Part shown: in pieces, positions 1-36,900 of the stretch
Layout: each line of letters begins with the position of its first letter
Numbering within the stretch: the first letter of the stretch is position 1
From: a virus
Reading direction: 5' to 3' (one strand)
IMG/VR virus record: IMGVR_UViG_3300030107_005477
Span: 1 to 36,900 of that record
Length of the DNA: 36,900 nucleotides
Program-made: the position numbers and the translations under genes
Notes under the pieces: generated by a model
The model's database searches: none
What the model was told of the DNA's origin: nothing
Seen by the model: only the letters and a program-made list of their open reading frames with translations

Positions 1-98
1 AAGAAGTGGGTTGTTGACACCCGCGCTAAAGGCATCAAAAAATTAAATGGTGGTGTTGGTGAACAAAAAGAATTTGTTTGCAAAGAAGCAGCTGACGC
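1..98. repeat. Terminal redundancy: direct repeat with 36802-36899
   Basis: The first 98 bases are identical to 36802-36899; the next base differs (T at 99, A at 36900). The repeat lies inside one gene (integrase) and joins its two halves in frame. This is best explained as overlap of a circular molecule or circular assembly rather than a genuine duplicated gene. Confidence 0.9.
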
Positions 99-1212
99 TT
101 ATTGCGTTCGTATAAACCAACAACAAGCCTCTGGCGGTGCTGTTAGCCAACACACAGCAGGAACGCTCCGACAGGCTTACGAATTTTTCCAAACAGAAAT
201 TGATATGAACATCGGAGATGTCTGGACATATCATTATGGCGCAGGCTTAAAGACTGACTTAGGCCATTATTGTGATCTGGTTCTGGATGGTGAAGCTATG
301 CCCTTTGGTGAGTTTAAGTGTGTGGACATTACGCCTGCCGATTGCAAACGTGCAACGAAACAGCTCAAGCGTGACAGAAATTTGTCTGACAAAACACGCA
401 AAGAAAAGGAGAAAGCACTTCGAGCACTTTTCGATTATGCACGAGTTGATCTGGAGTGGTGCAATCATAATCCAGCAGCCAGGGTCAAACTAAAAAAATC
501 GAAGTATGGATCTAAGGTAAAAAAAGCTCCAAAAATTCGTTTAGAAAAAGTTAACGTTAGTGATGTTTGTAAGTTGGTTGATTACCTGTTGGAAAATCAA
601 AAAGTTGCAAGACGAAATCCGGGATTAGACCAAACTGATCAAATTGTTTGGAACGAGTCGTTGGCGGTAGCAACCTTGGCTGAAACAGGTTTACGTTTTA
701 GTGAAATGGCTGCCCTTGAAATGAACAACCCAGAGCACATTAATCTTGAAACTGGACGGATCACTGTTCAACAGGTCGTGCGAAAAGTTGGACACAAACA
801 ATACGCTATCGAAAGCGTTGGTAAAACAAGTGCGTCATTCAGAACGATTCCGATCACTGAAGAACTGATCAAACAATTGCGGCTGTGGAAATTAAGATGT
901 CCTGCCGGAACAAAATATTGGTTTGGGACACGCGAAAATACTTTTCACACAGCCAGCACGAATTTGAACAGACGTATTATTTTTCCTGCGTGCGATGCTG
1001 TAAAAATCAAACGCATGACTTGCCATGAGTTTAGACATTTCTATGCGACACTATTGCTGGACATTCACCACGATGATTGGTCAAAAATTACTCGGCTGAT
1101 GGGACATACAAAAATTTCGTTTACGTATGATGTTTATGGCCATTGGATCGACGATGAAGAGTCTGACCGCGCTGATGCAGCTCGATTTGCTGAGCGTCTG
1201 GCAAGACGTTAA
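1..1212 (+). CDS. int: Tyrosine-type site-specific integrase (main part; gene starts at 36769 across the circular junction)
   Basis: Codon 1 of the window is already in frame and no start lies to the left. The same 98 bases occur at 36802-36899, where they follow an ATG at 36769 by 11 codons, so the full protein is about 414 residues. Catalytic residues of the tyrosine recombinase family are visible: Arg in ETGLRFSEMAAL, the HxxR box in CHEFRHFYATLL, then LMGH and the nucleophile region TYDVYGHW near the C-terminus. The N-terminal part is a basic, helical arm/core-binding region. Its role is integration and excision of the phage at attP, probably the tRNA-Asn gene at 36448-36523. A strong terminator follows the stop. 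Family assignment is secure; the attachment site is inferred. Confidence 0.95.
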   Translation, partial: KKWVVDTRAKGIKKLNGGVGEQKEFVCKEAADAYCVRINQQQASGGAVSQHTAGTLRQAYEFFQTEIDMNIGDVWTYHYGAGLKTDLGHYCDLVLDGEAMPFGEFKCVDITPADCKRATKQLKRDRNLSDKTRKEKEKALRALFDYARVDLEWCNHNPAARVKLKKSKYGSKVKKAPKIRLEKVNVSDVCKLVDYLLENQKVARRNPGLDQTDQIVWNESLAVATLAETGLRFSEMAALEMNNPEHINLETGRITVQQVVRKVGHKQYAIESVGKTSASFRTIPITEELIKQLRLWKLRCPAGTKYWFGTRENTFHTASTNLNRRIIFPACDAVKIKRMTCHEFRHFYATLLLDIHHDDWSKITRLMGHTKISFTYDVYGHWIDDEESDRADAARFAERLARR

Positions 1213-9273: not shown

Positions 9274-9741
9274 ATGGCAGGACGATTAGCAAAGAAACGT
9301 ATGCAGGCTGTCTGTGATGAATTGGCTAAGGGCAAGTCGCTAAGATCAATTTGTGACAACAACAAAGAAATGCCTGCTTGGAGCACTGTCTTGCAAACAG
9401 TGCAACGTGATGAAGATAGCTTCGAGATGTATGCCAGAGCACGCGCTATTGGAGCTGAAGTGCTGGCAGATCACATGCATGACCTGGCTGGATCTCCACT
9501 GCCCGAAGGATTGGATCCTCGGTTTGCTAACGCTGAGGTGCAGCGAAGGCGCTTAGAAGTGGATACTCTCAAGTGGACGTTTGCACGAATGCAACCTCGA
9601 GGCGTTCGCCATAAGAAAGAAGACATTGATCAGAATGCCGGACAGATCACGCTGGTTTGGGGTGATGATCAGGAAGTGCAGGAAGAACCGAAAACTGCTG
9701 AGATAGTGAGGCTGGTAAAAGATGGCGAAGAAGAAAAGTAA
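9274..9741 (+). CDS. terS: Terminase small subunit
   Basis: 155 residues. The N-terminal HTH (AVCDELAKGKSLRSICDNNK, then PAWSTVLQTVQRDEDSFEMY) and the helical oligomerisation region (ARARAIGAEVLADHMHDLAG, VQRRRLEVDTLKWTFARMQP) match the Sf6/P22-type small terminase family. The family recognises the packaging site and feeds DNA to the large subunit. Gene position immediately ahead of the terminase large subunit supports the call. It ends in an acidic tail. The ATG is the first start after the terminator. Confidence 0.9.
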   Translation: MAGRLAKKRMQAVCDELAKGKSLRSICDNNKEMPAWSTVLQTVQRDEDSFEMYARARAIGAEVLADHMHDLAGSPLPEGLDPRFANAEVQRRRLEVDTLKWTFARMQPRGVRHKKEDIDQNAGQITLVWGDDQEVQEEPKTAEIVRLVKDGEEEK

Positions 9742-10052: not shown

Positions 10053-10325
10053 CTCCCATTTTTTAGGGAGGCAGCTCAGCGCTGCACTACGCGCGAGAAT
10101 CAGAGCAAGGATGCAAATCATTCTCATTTGCAACTGGAAGGAGGAACCCCCAAGATCTGGGATTTATCTGCAAGCAGTCTGCAAGTTGTAGGTGCTAAGT
10201 CATTGATTCTATTGAGATGACAAAGCGGTTATCTACCTATTACCTGGGCATGGGCATTAGAAAATGGCAGTTTTCTGCGACCCCACCCCGCCCATTTTTT
10301 GCCGCTGCTGCATATACGTATATAC
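10053..10325 (+). other. Non-coding leader between small structural genes and terminase large subunit
   Basis: About 270 bases without a convincing gene. Two hairpins follow directly after the zinc-ribbon gene: CTCCC/GGGAG (10053-10070) and GCAGC/GCTGC (10071-10085). A short frame from ATG 10110 encodes 26 residues and has no support. A terminator-like hairpin lies at 10250-10300. The stretch may hold packaging-site or regulatory RNA signals. Confidence 0.5.
10250..10300 (+). terminator. Possible intrinsic terminator or attenuator upstream of terL
   Basis: ATGGGC (10250-10255) pairs with GCCCAT (10290-10295), enclosing an inner GCAG-TTTT-CTGC hairpin, and the outer stem runs straight into six T (10295-10300). 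The stem is short with a large loop, so strength is uncertain. It would modulate read-through from the small terminase genes into terL. Confidence 0.4.
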
Positions 10326-10505
10326 ATGGATGCACCACCCACAGACACAGACATACGTTACACCGCACATACCGTAAAGACTGAAGACGGCGATTGGGCG
10401 CTGGTCATCTCGCTGCGCGGTTTAGCTGATGAAGCGGAAGCTATGGACGCATTGGAGTCTATTATGGGGCGCTATGTGTTCTGGCCGAGCACGGAGTTAC
10501 ATTGA
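10326..10505 (+). CDS. Small hypothetical phage protein
   Basis: 59 residues from ATG 10326; a longer frame reaches 10299. DIRYTAHTVKTEDGDWALVI, then SLRGLADEAEAMDALESIMG, gives a beta-beta-alpha pattern common in small proteins encoded directly before terminase large subunits. Its stop overlaps the TTG start of terL and its last codons hold the terL ribosome binding site (GGAG). Function unknown. Confidence 0.6.
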   Translation: MDAPPTDTDIRYTAHTVKTEDGDWALVISLRGLADEAEAMDALESIMGRYVFWPSTELH

Positions 10506-11803
10506 GAAATCAGACAGTTCGTATTCCTTACACGCCACGTTCGTTGCAGGCTGAGCTGCACAAGCAGCTGTCTGCCCATCGCTGGAGTGTTCTGGTGCTG
10601 CATCGACGCGCAGGCAAGACGGTTATGTCGATTAACCATCTGCTGCGTGATGCCATATTGTGTGATCATCATATGGGGCGCTACGCTTACATTGCCCCGC
10701 AATACAAGCAGGCAAAAGCCGTGGCCTGGGATTACCTAAAAACCTTTGCTGGTGATATCCCTGGCGTAAAGTTTAATGAAACTGAATTGCGTTGTGATTT
10801 ACCGAATAAAGCACGCATACAACTCCTTGGTGCTGAGAACCCTGATAGCTTGAGGGGTTTAGCATTAGATGGTGTCGTTCTCGATGAGTATGCGGATATG
10901 CCAGAAAGTTTGTTTGCTGAGATACTGCGACCAGCATTATCGGATAGAGCACCCAAGACCTACGCTATATTTGTAGGCACACCCCGCGGTCATAATGCTT
11001 TTTATGAATTATATGAGGCCGCAAAGCAGGACAAGGATTGGTTCACAGCAGTTTATAAGGCGAGTGAAACCGGGATATTACCACAGGAAGAGTTGGACGC
11101 AGCGCGTTCAATGATGTCTGAAAACCAGTATTTGCAAGAATTTGAAGCCAGCTGGGTTGCGAATGTTGAGGGATCAATCTTTGGCGCAGAAATGTCAAAG
11201 GCTGATGATGAAAACAGAATTACAAAAGTCCCGATTGACAATACGGCAAAGGTCAATACTGCGTGGGATCTTGGAATCAACGACGCCACAGCAATCATTT
11301 GCTACCAGCAAATTGGTCACGCCATTCATGTGGTTGATTACATTGAACAACGGAATGAGGGTTTACCTTATTATGTGGAACTACTTGAAAAGAAAAATTA
11401 CCTCTGGGGTCGCCATTACGCCCCGCATGATATCGAAGTGCGCGAGTTGGGCAGCGGCAAAAGTCGAAGGGAAATAGCGTATGATCTGGGTATTGATTTT
11501 TCGGTTCTACCCAAGCTCCCGGTTGAAGACGGAATACATAACGCTCAGGTCACGCTTTCGCGCGTTTATTTCGACTATGACAAGTGCAAGCCGTTGATCG
11601 AAGCATTACGTCAGTATCACAGGGCTTATAACGACAGAACGCGCACCTTTGCAGCATCACCTAAACGAGATTGGTCTACACACGGATCTGATGCCTTTCG
11701 CTATATGTGCTTGTCGATACGAGATCACGAACATTTCCGCAGACCCACCCAGCCGTTTGCCGACAATAAATATAACCCTCTTGGAAATGAGGTTTTTGCA
11801 TGA
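10502..11803 (+). CDS. terL: Terminase large subunit
   Basis: 433 residues. The ATPase domain has LHRRAGKT (Walker A variant, near residue 34) and LDGVVLDEYADM (Walker B plus catalytic Glu), then FVGTPRG (coupling motif). The nuclease domain carries AWDLGINDATAI with the first acidic residues and DIEVRELGSGKSRREIA near the active site, ending with HGSDAFRYMCL. It cuts and pumps phage DNA into proheads. The start is TTG 10502, supported by GGAG 5 nt upstream and overlap with the previous stop; the next ATG would delete the Walker A motif. Confidence 0.96.
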   Translation: MRNQTVRIPYTPRSLQAELHKQLSAHRWSVLVLHRRAGKTVMSINHLLRDAILCDHHMGRYAYIAPQYKQAKAVAWDYLKTFAGDIPGVKFNETELRCDLPNKARIQLLGAENPDSLRGLALDGVVLDEYADMPESLFAEILRPALSDRAPKTYAIFVGTPRGHNAFYELYEAAKQDKDWFTAVYKASETGILPQEELDAARSMMSENQYLQEFEASWVANVEGSIFGAEMSKADDENRITKVPIDNTAKVNTAWDLGINDATAIICYQQIGHAIHVVDYIEQRNEGLPYYVELLEKKNYLWGRHYAPHDIEVRELGSGKSRREIAYDLGIDFSVLPKLPVEDGIHNAQVTLSRVYFDYDKCKPLIEALRQYHRAYNDRTRTFAASPKRDWSTHGSDAFRYMCLSIRDHEHFRRPTQPFADNKYNPLGNEVFA

Positions 11804-15786: not shown

Positions 15787-17048
15787 ATGTCTACGCAAAT
15801 CACAACTGCCTTTGTTAATCAATTCTCCAGCAACGTGCAGATGTTGTCGCAGCAAATGGGTTCGCTGCTTCGGTCTGCTGTTGATGAGGAATCGATAACA
15901 GGGGAAAAAGCCTTTTTTGATCAAATCGGTTCGGCGGCGGCGGTGAATTTTCGCCTAGCTAGAGTGTGAACTTTAGCTGAAAACTGCTCAAATTCGGTGA
16001 AGGCTTTAAAATGCTAATACCGAGCGAAGCCCTAATTTGGGAACGTGTAGAGACTTGACGGGCAGCATCTTTATAAGATGAAGATAAAGTCCAGCGCACA
16101 AACATTTTTATGGCAGTGAAAGCTGTAGTGTGAAGGAAACGCACAAGCCGGCATAGTGACACCCCCCTCGTTACGACACCACATAGCAGGCGTCAAGTAG
16201 CCTTAGTGGACTATGAGTGGGCAGATTTGATTGATTCGGCCGACATGGTGAAGACTTTGATCTCGCCCGAAAGCTCTTATGCGAAGGCTGCGGCCGCGAG
16301 CATGGGAAGGGCGATTGATGATGAAATCATCTCTGCAGCGTTTGGTGACGCTAAAACAGGTAAGGAAGGTGGCACAACTACATCTTTCCCTGCCGGGCAG
16401 CAAGTTGCTGTTGGTTCACCAGCTGCGGGATTAACGATAGCTAAACTGGTTAACGCCAAGAAAATTCTTGATGCTAATTCAGTGGATCCATCTATCCCAC
16501 GGTATATCGCTGTTTCACCTGAGCAAATTGAAGACTTGCTCAACAACACAACAGTTACAAGCGCAGACCATAACACGGTAAATTAGCTTGCCTATCTAGG
16601 TGGCAACATTTAGATGAAAATCGGTCAAATTCGGGGAAGCCTTAACAGGTAATGCTGATGGTAATCGCGAGCCAAGCCCTTCGGGGAAGGTGTAGAGACT
16701 AGACGGCTGACACCCCTAGCGGGTGAAGGGATAGTCCAGACTCCAAACGTCTTATGACGGCAGTGAAAACTGTAGAGGGTATGAAGAGCTTTAGCTGTTG
16801 GTGACATCGACACCTTCGTAGGGTTTAAGTTCATTGTTTCAAACCGCCTTGACACCAATGCAAGTTCGCAACGTCGCGTAATTGCATGGGCGCAGGACGG
16901 AATAAAACTAGCAGTTGGCAAAGACGTTACTGCTAGAATTTCGGAACGTGACGACAAATCCTATTCCACTCAGGTCTACTACTGCATGTCAGTAGCTGCG
17001 ACTCGAATGGAAGAAGAGAAGGTCGTTGAAGTCATATGTTCAGAATAG
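15787..17048 (+). CDS. Major capsid protein, split by two group I introns (join 15787-15944, 16136-16579, 16787-17048)
   Basis: Spliced length is 864 nt, giving 287 residues. Exon 1 starts at ATG 15787 after AAAGGAGG and encodes MSTQITTAFVNQFSSNVQML. Exon 2 carries RHSDTPLVTTPHSRRQVALV then DYEWADLIDSADMVKTLISP, and exon 3 carries DIDTFVGFKFIVSNRL and ARISERDDKSYSTQVYYCMS. These blocks match the podovirus capsid family with TSRHxDTP, DYEWADLID and GRISERDDKRYATQVYxSMSVGATRMEE. Unspliced reading stops at 15967 and again at 16584. Splicing rebuilds AAV-KRTSRH and NTV-ALAVGDIDTF. A residue found after NTV in relatives (from memory) is missing here. The downstream decoration gene follows after 12 nt. 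Confidence 0.9.
15945..16135 (+). ncRNA. Group I intron 1 (191 nt, no ORF) in the major capsid gene
   Basis: The 5' exon ends CGGU. P1 is GGU|GA paired with UCGCC (15951-15955), placing a U.G wobble at the splice site. P10: UUUC (15949-15952) pairs with exon 2 start GAAA. P2 is AGCUAGAG (15957-15964) with CUUUAGCU (15971-15978). P3 is CUGCUC (15984-15989) with GGGCAG (16060-16065). P4 is UUCGGU (15993-15998) with ACCGAG (16019-16024). P6 is CCC/GGG (16030-16041). P7 is GACUU (16052-16056) with AAGUC (16087-16091). P8 is CAUCUU/AAGAUG (16066-16080). A GAAA-capped P9 hairpin follows and the intron ends in G (16135). There is no homing endonuclease. Confidence 0.92.
16580..16786 (+). ncRNA. Group I intron 2 (207 nt, no ORF) in the major capsid gene
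   Basis: The exon again ends CGGU. P1 is GGU|AA with UUGCC (16588-16592), with the U.G wobble at the splice site. P2 is AUCUAGGU (16594-16601) with AUUUAGAU (16608-16615). P3 is UCGGUC (16621-16626) with GGCUGA (16705-16710). P6 is CCC-UUCG-GGG (16677-16686). P7 is GACUA (16697-16701) with UAGUC (16732-16736). P8 is CACCC/GGGUG (16711-16725). Then come a CGUC-UUAU-GACG hairpin and CAGU-GAAA-ACUG (P9 region), with terminal G at 16786. P2, P3, P7 and P8 differ from intron 1 by compensating changes. Length is divisible by three but an in-frame stop (16584) requires splicing. Confidence 0.92.
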
Positions 17049-35140: not shown

Positions 35141-36220
35141 ATGGCAAACAAAGCCCTCACAGATGAGCTTTGCAGACAAACCTTAGAAGCCATCGAAATT
35201 TACGGTAACACAAGTGCAGCTGCTGCTGGTCTAAAAATTAATCGGTCAACTTTTGAAAACCGAGTGCGGGTTGCCAAAGAAAGGTTTGCTGCAGCAGCAC
35301 CGAAGGATGTGGAGCTACCCACTTTTCCAAGTGATGATATTCCAATTGTCGAAATTCTCGACACGATGGAAAAACGTTTTTCAAAACGTGCAGAAGCACA
35401 AGCCGCAAAAAAATGGTTTACGGTCAAAGTAAAAAATAGTGATCCAATGGGTCTGTGTTTCATTGGTGATCCACACATCGATTCTAACGGCTGTAACATT
35501 TCGTTGTTGCGAAGAGACATTGAGTTGATGAATCAGCCCGGCATGTTCTGTGTGAACCTCGGAGACACAACCGATGGTGATTGGCCAGGCCGCTTAATGA
35601 AACTCCATGCACAATCTGACCAAAGCATCACGACAGCTCGACGCTTAGCCGATTGGTTTCTGAATGACACTGGACTGCGCTGGCTTGCGATTCTGATCGG
35701 AAATCACGATGCCTGGGGTGAAGGCGCTGAGATTTTACGAAGGATGAATGTGCAAAAGATTCCAATGATGGACTGGTCGGCACATTGGAAAATAAAATTT
35801 AGCAACGAGCGCGAATGCAAGATTATCACAGCACATGATTTCCCTGGGCATTCGATGTGGAATAGCCTCCACGCAAACCAGCGTGCAGCAACAACAAGCA
35901 CCGATGCACATATTTATGCCAGTGGTCATAAACATAATTGGGCGATGCATCAGGAAGAAAATGCACATCGAGAATTTGTGTATTGGCTGGTGCGTGCCAG
36001 AGGCTATAAATATATAGACAGTTATGCGGATAAATTGGGCTATGCTTCTCAGCAACACGGAGCAACGATCTGTGCGATCATTGATCCAAAAGCCAGCAGC
36101 GAAGCGAGGTTTGTAACTTGTTTTGCAGACCTTGAAGAAGCATCAGACTATCTAAAGTTCAAACGCCAAACATCAAAACGTGCAAGTGAAATTTTAAAAA
36201 ATGCCAAAACGTGCAAGTGA
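35141..36220 (+). CDS. Calcineurin-like metallophosphoesterase with N-terminal HTH
   Basis: 359 residues. Residues about 1-50 form a helix-turn-helix (TLEAIEIYGNTSAAAAGLKI, NRSTFENRVRVA). The phosphoesterase motifs then follow in order: CFIGDPHID, VNLGDTTDG, ILIGNHDAWG, TAHDFPGHS, and YASGHKHNW. These supply all metal ligands. Similar proteins are common at the end of the lysis region in marine podoviruses, with unknown substrate. The last codons lie in a 31-bp tandem duplication. The open frame ends NAKTCK, whereas the single-copy sequence would end ILKNAN. Confidence 0.87.
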   Translation: MANKALTDELCRQTLEAIEIYGNTSAAAAGLKINRSTFENRVRVAKERFAAAAPKDVELPTFPSDDIPIVEILDTMEKRFSKRAEAQAAKKWFTVKVKNSDPMGLCFIGDPHIDSNGCNISLLRRDIELMNQPGMFCVNLGDTTDGDWPGRLMKLHAQSDQSITTARRLADWFLNDTGLRWLAILIGNHDAWGEGAEILRRMNVQKIPMMDWSAHWKIKFSNERECKIITAHDFPGHSMWNSLHANQRAATTSTDAHIYASGHKHNWAMHQEENAHREFVYWLVRARGYKYIDSYADKLGYASQQHGATICAIIDPKASSEARFVTCFADLEEASDYLKFKRQTSKRASEILKNAKTCK

Positions 36221-36272
36221 AATTTTAAAAAATGCCAATTAAATTTTAAAAAAAGCAAAAACGTGCAAGTGA
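36175..36272 (+). repeat. Tandem 31-bp duplication plus degenerate third copy
   Basis: 36175-36205 and 36206-36236 are identical 31-bp units beginning AAAACGTGCAAGTGAAATTT. A third, imperfect copy covers part of 36241-36272. The first unit is coding (KRASEILKNA); the second shifts frame and ends the metallophosphoesterase at 36220. Each unit contains TGCAAG, the reverse complement of the CTTGCA repeats downstream. Confidence 0.9.
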
Positions 36273-36447
36273 GTGAGGGTTTTTTGCTTGCAGATTGCTT
36301 GCAGATTGCTTGCACGCGACACGTTTGTATTGCCAAATCACCGTTCGTATCATAGAATCACATTAGGTGATGTTGTTACGTGTTACAAAGCAAAAGGTGA
36401 GGGTTTCTGTGGGTTTCGTTGGTGTTAATTGGTATCAGTTAGTTTGT
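36221..36447. other. Non-coding left arm of the attachment region
   Basis: No gene is seen. It contains the end of the 31-bp repeats, the CTTGCAGATT-type repeats (36286-36314), and a small palindrome ATCAC-ATTAG-GTGAT (36357-36371). The sequence leads directly to the tRNA-Asn gene. AT-rich with repeated motifs on both sides of the tRNA, it has the make-up of a phage attP region. Confidence 0.6.
36286..36314 (+). repeat. CTTGCAGATT direct repeats, left of the tRNA
   Basis: GCTTGCAGATT occurs at 36286-36296 and 36297-36307, then GCTTGCA at 36308-36314. The 11-bp spacing puts the copies on the same helical face. Matching copies lie to the right of the tRNA at 36571-36590, suggesting arm-type binding sites for integrase or excisionase. 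Confidence 0.75.
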
Positions 36448-36523
36448 TCCCCGGTAGCTCAGTTGGTAGAGCGCCCGGCTGTTAACCGATTTGTCGCTGG
36501 TTCGAGTCCGGCCCGGGGAGCCA
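36448..36523 (+). tRNA. tRNA-Asn (anticodon GTT), likely part of attP
   Basis: 76 nt including an encoded CCA. The acceptor stem TCCCCGG/CCGGGGA is perfect, the D arm is GCTC...GAGC, the anticodon loop CTGTTAA gives GUU, and the T arm has GCTGG/CCGGC with GTTCGAGTC. The discriminator is G. The anticodon stem pairs only three of five positions (CCCGG against CCGAT), with two outer mismatches, so function as a tRNA is doubtful or reduced. Tyrosine integrases commonly use tRNA genes as attachment sites; the integrase gene starts 245 nt downstream. Confidence 0.85.
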
Positions 36524-36570: not shown

Positions 36571-36590
36571 ACTTGCAGATTACTTGCAGA
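36571..36590 (+). repeat. CTTGCAGA direct repeats, right of the tRNA
   Basis: ACTTGCAGATT (36571-36581) and ACTTGCAGA (36582-36590) share the motif and 11-bp spacing with the left group at 36286-36314. Presence on both sides of the tRNA is the arrangement expected for integrase arm sites. Confidence 0.72.
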
Positions 36591-36625
36591 CGTTTTTTTC
36601 ATTCTCTCCTCCCCTTTTCAAAAAA

Positions 36626-36704
36626 ACCGCTTTGTCACAAAAATAATTTTTTCTCACAACAAAAAAAACCGCTTTGTCGCTAAAAAAAAACCGCTTTGTC
36701 GCTA
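36626..36704 (+). repeat. Three ACCGCTTTGTC repeats resembling the tRNA anticodon-arm region
   Basis: Copies start at 36626, 36668 and 36690, each preceded by an A run. Copies 2 and 3 read AACCGCTTTGTCGCT. The tRNA has AACCGATTTGTCGCT at 36484-36498, a single mismatch. They lie between the tRNA and the integrase promoter, so the integrase may bind them, for instance for autoregulation, or they may be remnants of attachment cores. Confidence 0.75.
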
Positions 36705-36734
36705 TTGCAATGTCACCTACAGTTACTATATGAT
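36705..36734 (+). promoter_or_regulatory. Putative integrase promoter
   Basis: TTGCAA (36705-36710) and TATGAT (36729-36734) with an 18-nt spacer; TATATG two bases earlier gives 16 nt. It lies immediately downstream of the third ACCGCTTTGTC repeat and 35 nt before the integrase ATG. Confidence 0.5.
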
Positions 36735-36768: not shown

Positions 36769-36900
36769 ATGCAAGTAGAACCACGTTATCGAAAAAGTAT
36801 AAAGAAGTGGGTTGTTGACACCCGCGCTAAAGGCATCAAAAAATTAAATGGTGGTGTTGGTGAACAAAAAGAATTTGTTTGCAAAGAAGCAGCTGACGCA
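36769..36900 (+). CDS. int: Tyrosine integrase, N-terminal part (continues at position 1)
   Basis: ATG at 36769 lies 7 nt after a GGAGG ribosome binding site (36757-36761). It opens MQVEPRYRKSIKKWVVDTRA, which runs into the frame that starts the window. The final base of the window differs from the left copy (GCA versus GCT), but both encode Ala. This start is chosen because of the ribosome binding site and because the upstream region holds only repeats and promoter-like sequence. Joined with 1-1212, the integrase is complete. Confidence 0.92.
   Translation, partial: MQVEPRYRKSIKKWVVDTRAKGIKKLNGGVGEQKEFVCKEAADA

Follow-up and report, generated by a model that had tools for sequence, protein, structure and literature searches.

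Why does a phage with a tRNA gene in its attachment region also carry, between that tRNA and the integrase promoter, three further copies of a piece of the same tRNA? The question arises in the window, by which we mean the whole 36,900-nucleotide stretch analysed here, a circular virus record whose bases 1-100 are identical to 36801-36900 and which appears to come from a marine temperate phage; its large terminase shows 49-56% identity to the corresponding protein of the Pelagibacter phage HTVC010P group. The structural gene region also holds two group I intron matches (RF00028) close together, at 15935-16113 and 16570-16762, with 75.6 and 52.0 bits against a gathering score of 50. The original prediction offered two readings of the repeats, namely core-type sites of the integrase reused as operators, or cores left behind by earlier target switching. 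Here we follow the motif through the window and through related phages, where it leads to a second site, about 10 kb away.

Results

The half-site copies and attP of the window

The motif occurs as predicted, twice as AACCGCTTTGTCGCT and once as the variant AACCGCTTTGTCACA, both AACCGCTTTGTCGCT copies being one base off the tRNA-Asn segment AACCGATTTGTCGCT (36484-36498) and all copies lying between the tRNA and the -35-like TTGCAA at 36705 (Table 1); only the outer coordinates of the array had to be moved by one base, to 36625-36703. Within the tRNA, the copied stretch begins where the anticodon loop ends on its 3' side and reaches the variable and T-stem region. Three non-overlapping 15-mers match a 50-nt segment of the tRNA at 12 or more of 15 positions, which none of 500 dinucleotide shuffles reproduced, one or more such 15-mers being found in 38 of the 500; the best single match, with a score of 13, has p ~0.0025, the floor for 400 shuffles.

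Table 1. Features of the window around the attachment region and the terminase genes.
Feature	Position	Strand	Remarks
Half-site copy 1, AACCGCTTTGTCACA	36625..36639	+	12/15 vs tRNA segment
Half-site copy 2, AACCGCTTTGTCGCT	36667..36681	+	14/15 vs tRNA segment
Half-site copy 3, AACCGCTTTGTCGCT	36689..36703	+	14/15 vs tRNA segment
Integrase gene, first part	36769..36900	+	crosses circular junction (36801-36900 = 1-100), ends at 1212
Integrase gene, rest	1..1212	+	tyrosine recombinase, PF00589 and PHROG integrase match
tRNA-Asn (GTT) in attP, complete	36448..36523	+	ARAGORN, Rfam
Right half-site in tRNA-Asn, CCGATTTGTCGCT	36486-36498	+	next to putative overlap CTGTTAA
Left arm-type repeats, CTTGCAGATT / CTTGCAGATT / CTTGCACG, 11-bp steps	36287..36316	+	sequence repeats
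Three ACTTGCACGTTTT repeats, possible further left arm-type sites	36175..36270	-	sequence repeats
Right arm-type repeats, CTTGCAGATTACTTGCAGACG	36572..36592	+	sequence repeats
Promoter-like TTGCAA-18-TATGAT for int	36705..36734	+	consensus match only
Remote core-like site, TAGG-TAGATAA-CCGCTTTGTC	10219..10239	-	sequence comparison
Remote site, left half	10236-10239	-	
Remote site, 7-bp spacer	10229-10235	-	
Remote site, right half	10219-10228	-	
IHF-like box, AATCAATGACTTA	10196..10208	-	consensus match, 11 bases beyond half-site
Remote arm-type repeats, CTTGCAGACTGCTTGCAGATA	10165..10185	-	sequence repeats
Small terminase subunit, upstream neighbour of remote site	9274..9741	+	tblastn matches annotated terminase small subunit
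Large terminase subunit, downstream neighbour of remote site	10502..11803	+	domain/sequence matches

If CTGTTAA in the anticodon loop (36479-36485) is taken as the 7-bp overlap, each AACCGCTTTGTCGCT copy is the right half-site of the tRNA with one change, A to C. The crossover is likely to fall in this loop, because the symmetry CGG-CTGTTAA-CCG would fit a 7-bp overlap there, and because relatives retain only the 3' part of the tRNA, as many do in their att regions. The two Asn-targeting relatives, L006 and L025, have this 3' part alone, compared with a complete tRNA-Asn in the window, whose 5' half may be phage-specific and whose 3' half may rebuild the host tRNA. By eye, the anticodon stem of the window tRNA is CCCGG / CCGAT, with two mismatched pairs. 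A search for the host tRNA gene returned the phage's own fragment, in a MAG record, as its sole match.

Direct repeats of putative arm type flank the core on both sides (36287-36316 and 36572-36592), and a tyrosine recombinase gene (PF00589, PHROG) adjoins the att region. The structure predicted for this integrase is poor (mean pLDDT 50) and too weak for a fold search; an N-terminal strand-strand-helix domain, modelled at low confidence, would suit arm binding. The predicted int promoter sits among these predicted integrase sites, with copy 3 ending 1 bp before its -35-like box.

Promoter-side copies in related phages

Related att regions were collected by integrase searches and by a search with the neighbouring phosphoesterase; the phage collection yielded no close integrase relative. 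The targets are tRNA-Met (L003, L037, L038, L041, L045, L064, L125, L133, L140, L141, G025), Asn (L006, L025), Lys (L134-L136) and Val (L143), or T-arm parts (G003, L061, L112). A copy at the position of copy 3, directly 5' of the -35 box, is kept in L003, L006, L025, L037-L041, L125 and L133, and in many relatives the distance from copy to -35 is ~4-5 nt. For 20 regions we matched what each phage has of its own tRNA against the sequence lying between this tRNA and the int operon's first gene, with 400 shuffles per region; L040, L042 (the same as L041), L059 (like L064), L098 and L136 were left out as duplicate or short, and L015/L016 stood outside this test. An own-tRNA match with p no greater than ~0.05 was found in 14 of the 20 phages, nearly always directly upstream of the operon promoter and ~71-124 bases ahead of the first int-operon gene; the match was weak by itself in L006 (p 0.10) and L025 (p 0.12), and four regions (G025, L143, L061, L112) gave none in the 400-shuffle test. 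The comparison of related phages called for by the original prediction thus bears it out in part: the motif recurs and is usually like the phage's own tRNA core, strict tracking of the target being weakened by these same four regions. Permuting the pairing of copies with tRNAs over the 7 target classes gave a result as good as the true one, or better, in 60 of 5040 cases. The Met-clade phages are related to one another and so do not count as independent; there are near-duplicates among the loci, and some site calls were made by eye. In phage P4, taken as a control, no such copy was found (140 of 200 shuffles were as good); the int/attP arrangement of HP1 and Sf6 makes the test inapplicable to them.

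The individual phages add detail. Met phages have the copy AACCTGACGGTC against the tRNA sequence AACCTGAAGGTC, the copy of L140 being identical to the tRNA; the Lys phage L134 has copied both half-sites, with a changed and shorter spacer; and in G003, whose att core lies in the T-arm, 15 of 15 bases are copied. L143 (record G004) has a tRNA-Val attP, yet Met-like copies at both promoter and remote site, and could be a recent target switch. The copy is inverted in L045 and L064, which together with L141 carry an extra copy that lies not by the int promoter but in the outer left arm, so that a role in attP architecture is possible. L002, L008 and L012 have no tRNA and arm-repeat region between phosphoesterase and int, yet keep the promoter copy AACCTGACGGTC and int; no further ACCTGAMGGTC was found on these contigs. 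In L037, L038 and L040 the copy stays with the promoter although other genes separate it from int. These close relatives have different small genes between promoter and int, a stretch that is a possible insertion spot for accessory genes. In L050 (4324-4781), a tRNA 3' part is followed by tRNA-Gly and an EF-Tu-like gene (elongation factor Tu; gene named by eye), which points to a possible junction between prophage and host on this contig.

Recombining cores have their half-sites at a fixed spacing. Of 18 promoter copies, none had a partner at 7 bp with at least 3 of 5 bases complementary; where a partner was seen, it stood at 4 bp (L006), 5 bp (L003, L037, L038, L125, L133) or 6 bp (L134, G003). 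Such spacing suggests sites that would be bound without being recombined.

A related site between the terminase genes

The window motif recurs on the minus strand at 10219-10229, beside attP-type arm repeats CTTGCAGACTGCTTGCAGATA, and the first 13 bases of copy 1 are identical to this remote copy in the 10 kb region. The whole site spans 10165-10239, with arms on one side only. Its layout is that of a template also seen in relatives, consisting of a half-site, 7 bp, a second half-site, 11 bases, the box ATCAATGACTTA, 8-9 bases and two arm repeats 11 bp apart. The site is present in each of the nine records with both attP and the terminase region readable (the window, G001-G005, G009, G025, G034), and Met-clade records carry a single remote copy of ACCTGACGGTC in the terminase region, 9-12 kb from attP. 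At all 8 remote sites tested, 3-5 of 5 bases are complementary at 7 bp, the window and G003 having only 3 of 5; the G034 site was read separately from this count. The 7-bp spacers themselves vary among phages and are not the sequence of the tRNA overlap.

For a search that made no use of the motif, terminase loci were found via the small terminase subunit. Of 29 loci at 60% identity or more, 25 were examined, L177, L179, L191 and L192 being too short downstream. A clear site, defined as the spacing pattern plus arms or an IHF-like box and judged partly by eye, was present in 17 of the 25 (L164-L168, L171-L176, L178, L180-L184), several of them near-duplicates. In L170 and L190 the site was recognised against their own attP, L189 has the same stretch as L190 in a record without int, the site of L169 is weak, and none was seen in L185-L188. 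In L171, L172 and L174-L178 the site has the opposite orientation. L180-L183, which carry the site, have a terminase flank 87-90% identical to that of L002/L008/L012. Judged against the IHF consensus, 13 of the 25 loci, and the window as well, have a candidate box with up to 2 mismatches at a distance of 11 bases from the half-site; such matches number 4 in the window against 2.9 expected, and the remote sites of G003 and G004 lack one. Conserved blocks of GGCGGGGTGGGG and CGCGCGTAGTGCTGCGC type flank the site (window 10060-10320, L157-L160, L170) and are candidate packaging-site elements.

In its arms and half-sites the remote site also tends to share sequence with the attP of the same phage, as in CTTGCA (window), GTAGCG (G009), GGTAAC (G003), CGTAACA (G004), TTCGCA (G025) and CAGTGCAGACCCAGTGCCAAAAC (G034). 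For 8 records, G034 left out, the sum of 8-mers shared between own attP and remote site was reached by 19 of 40320 permutations. Among Met-clade records, whose arms and half-sites resemble one another, own pairing is no higher than pairing with neighbours.

Discussion

We think it rather probable that the repeats are core-type sites of the integrase, of which those at the promoter regulate int and the remote one is att-like. In the scenario that we propose, the three repeats would be extra copies of one core-type half-site, taken from the anticodon stem and variable loop of tRNA-Asn. Some protein has to bind the tRNA core, which the remaining sites look like, and we infer that the integrase would be the one to bind them all. 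What the comparison shows is the sequences, how they recur, their spacing and their co-variation; binding, repression and recombination are deduced from these. Bound to the promoter copies, the integrase would regulate, probably repress, its own operon, and these copies would offer it no recombinable core: each stands alone as a half-site, and where relatives have a pair, its members are 4-6 bp apart and not 7 bp. The idea of core-type sites reused as operators, here as probable autoregulators of int, gains comparative support; the 7-bp spacing of a recombining core is not kept in the promoter copies. The same half-site would be reused in a complete, one-armed site resembling lambda attL between the terminase genes, which has recombining geometry and is probably bound by the integrase together with IHF.

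The remote site changes the picture drawn from the promoter repeats alone. Let us assume that two copies of it meet in a dimer, a concatemer or a terminally redundant genome; they would share the same 7-bp spacer, so the spacer would be free to drift, and a fixed spacing around an unconstrained sequence would be compatible with two identical copies recombining with each other. The location by the terminase genes hints at a link to packaging or genome form. Recombination there, serving monomer resolution or circularisation of phage DNA, seems to us somewhat likelier than pure regulation, although the site could be a mere binding platform; that the phage's own integrase uses it as a second recombination site, compatible with itself, is a tentative proposal, which we regard as rather doubtful. 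On this proposal, the integrase would have two tasks, integration at the tRNA and the resolution or circularisation of phage DNA close to the packaging genes, with the promoter half-sites setting its level.

Other explanations need to be weighed. Lambda CII acts at PI and PaQ, and another regulatory protein of the phage, either an excisionase or an activator like CII, might similarly bind the copies and control promoters of int and of the terminase region. One motif beside a promoter and again ~10 kb away in opposite orientation would suit such a protein, as would the ~4-5 nt between copy and -35 box in many relatives. We consider this improbable, in that the motif changes with the tRNA target, down to the 15 of 15 bases of the T-arm phage, and a promoter-like match beside the remote site of the window is at chance level. 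A CII-like activator in particular is disfavoured by a remote site that has full att anatomy (both half-sites, 7-bp spacer, attP-type arm repeats) and can be flipped. Of comparably low probability, in our estimate, is the proposal that the copies serve not as operators but in the structure of the attP intasome, or as decoys for spare integrase. Copies on both outer arms in L045, L064 and L141, and arm repeats near the copies, would agree with it; however, L002, L008 and L012 keep the promoter copy without the att region, and in L037, L038 and L040 the copy stays with the promoter when genes intervene before int.

Leftovers of target switching, the second suggestion of the original prediction, fit less well than operators, because the copy is kept across divergent relatives, even with genes between promoter and int. 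That the copies are functionless relics of earlier cores we judge very unlikely; L143, with its Val target and Met-like copies, would be such a case, but the half-site is held at one position in divergent relatives and the remote arms and half-site co-vary with attP, and on these two observations we reject relics as the sole explanation. Chance repeats in an A-rich spacer, for which the A-rich flanks shared by the copies might speak, can be dismissed, since no shuffle gave three copies and the motif recurs in relatives and at the remote site.

Returning to integrase core-type sites as the preferred reading, we may compare the window phage with known systems. Phage P1 circularises its DNA by loxP-Cre recombination near pac. 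Like loxP, the remote site would be a putative tyrosine-recombinase site near packaging functions, two copies of which could, speculatively, recombine; unlike Cre, the enzyme here is predicted to be an arm-binding-type integrase. The closest parallel for the promoter copies is intS of KplE1, whose negatively autoregulated promoter overlaps the att site (PMC2951348). Both systems have a tRNA-targeting tyrosine integrase with its promoter in the att region and core-type and arm-type sites near the -35/-10 boxes, the sites being predicted in our case, as is repression by the integrase. In contrast to the overlap in KplE1, the window phage has dedicated extra copies of a putative core half-site at non-recombining spacing by its promoter, about 140-220 bp from the core. 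For the remote site the parallel is lambda attL, BOC'P', in which Int bridges P'1-C' and P'2-B (PMC4880445). The putative remote site likewise has a pair of core-type half-sites separated by 7 bp, with a candidate IHF box and arms on one side. Unlike attL, it lies in the free phage genome, between terminase genes and beside a separate complete attP, with a 7-bp spacer that differs from that of attP and among phages. Lastly, tRNA-dependent lysogeny combines a tyrosine integrase, an anticodon-region crossover and a phage tRNA of the same isotype (PMC10865867). The window phage would share the crossover region and has such a tRNA; the difference is that this tRNA belongs to attP itself and would, through its 3' half, restore the tRNA of the host. 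Among open-licence papers, searches with limited word sets brought up none that describes a second, conserved integrase site next to the terminase genes.

L002, L008 and L012, with an integrase and no visible attP, would be a good test case. If the preferred reading is right, one half-site would serve in three contexts in a single genome, that is, recombination, regulation of int and a second att-like site, and a change of target would require several sites to move together. The integrases of such phages would then gain a possible second job.
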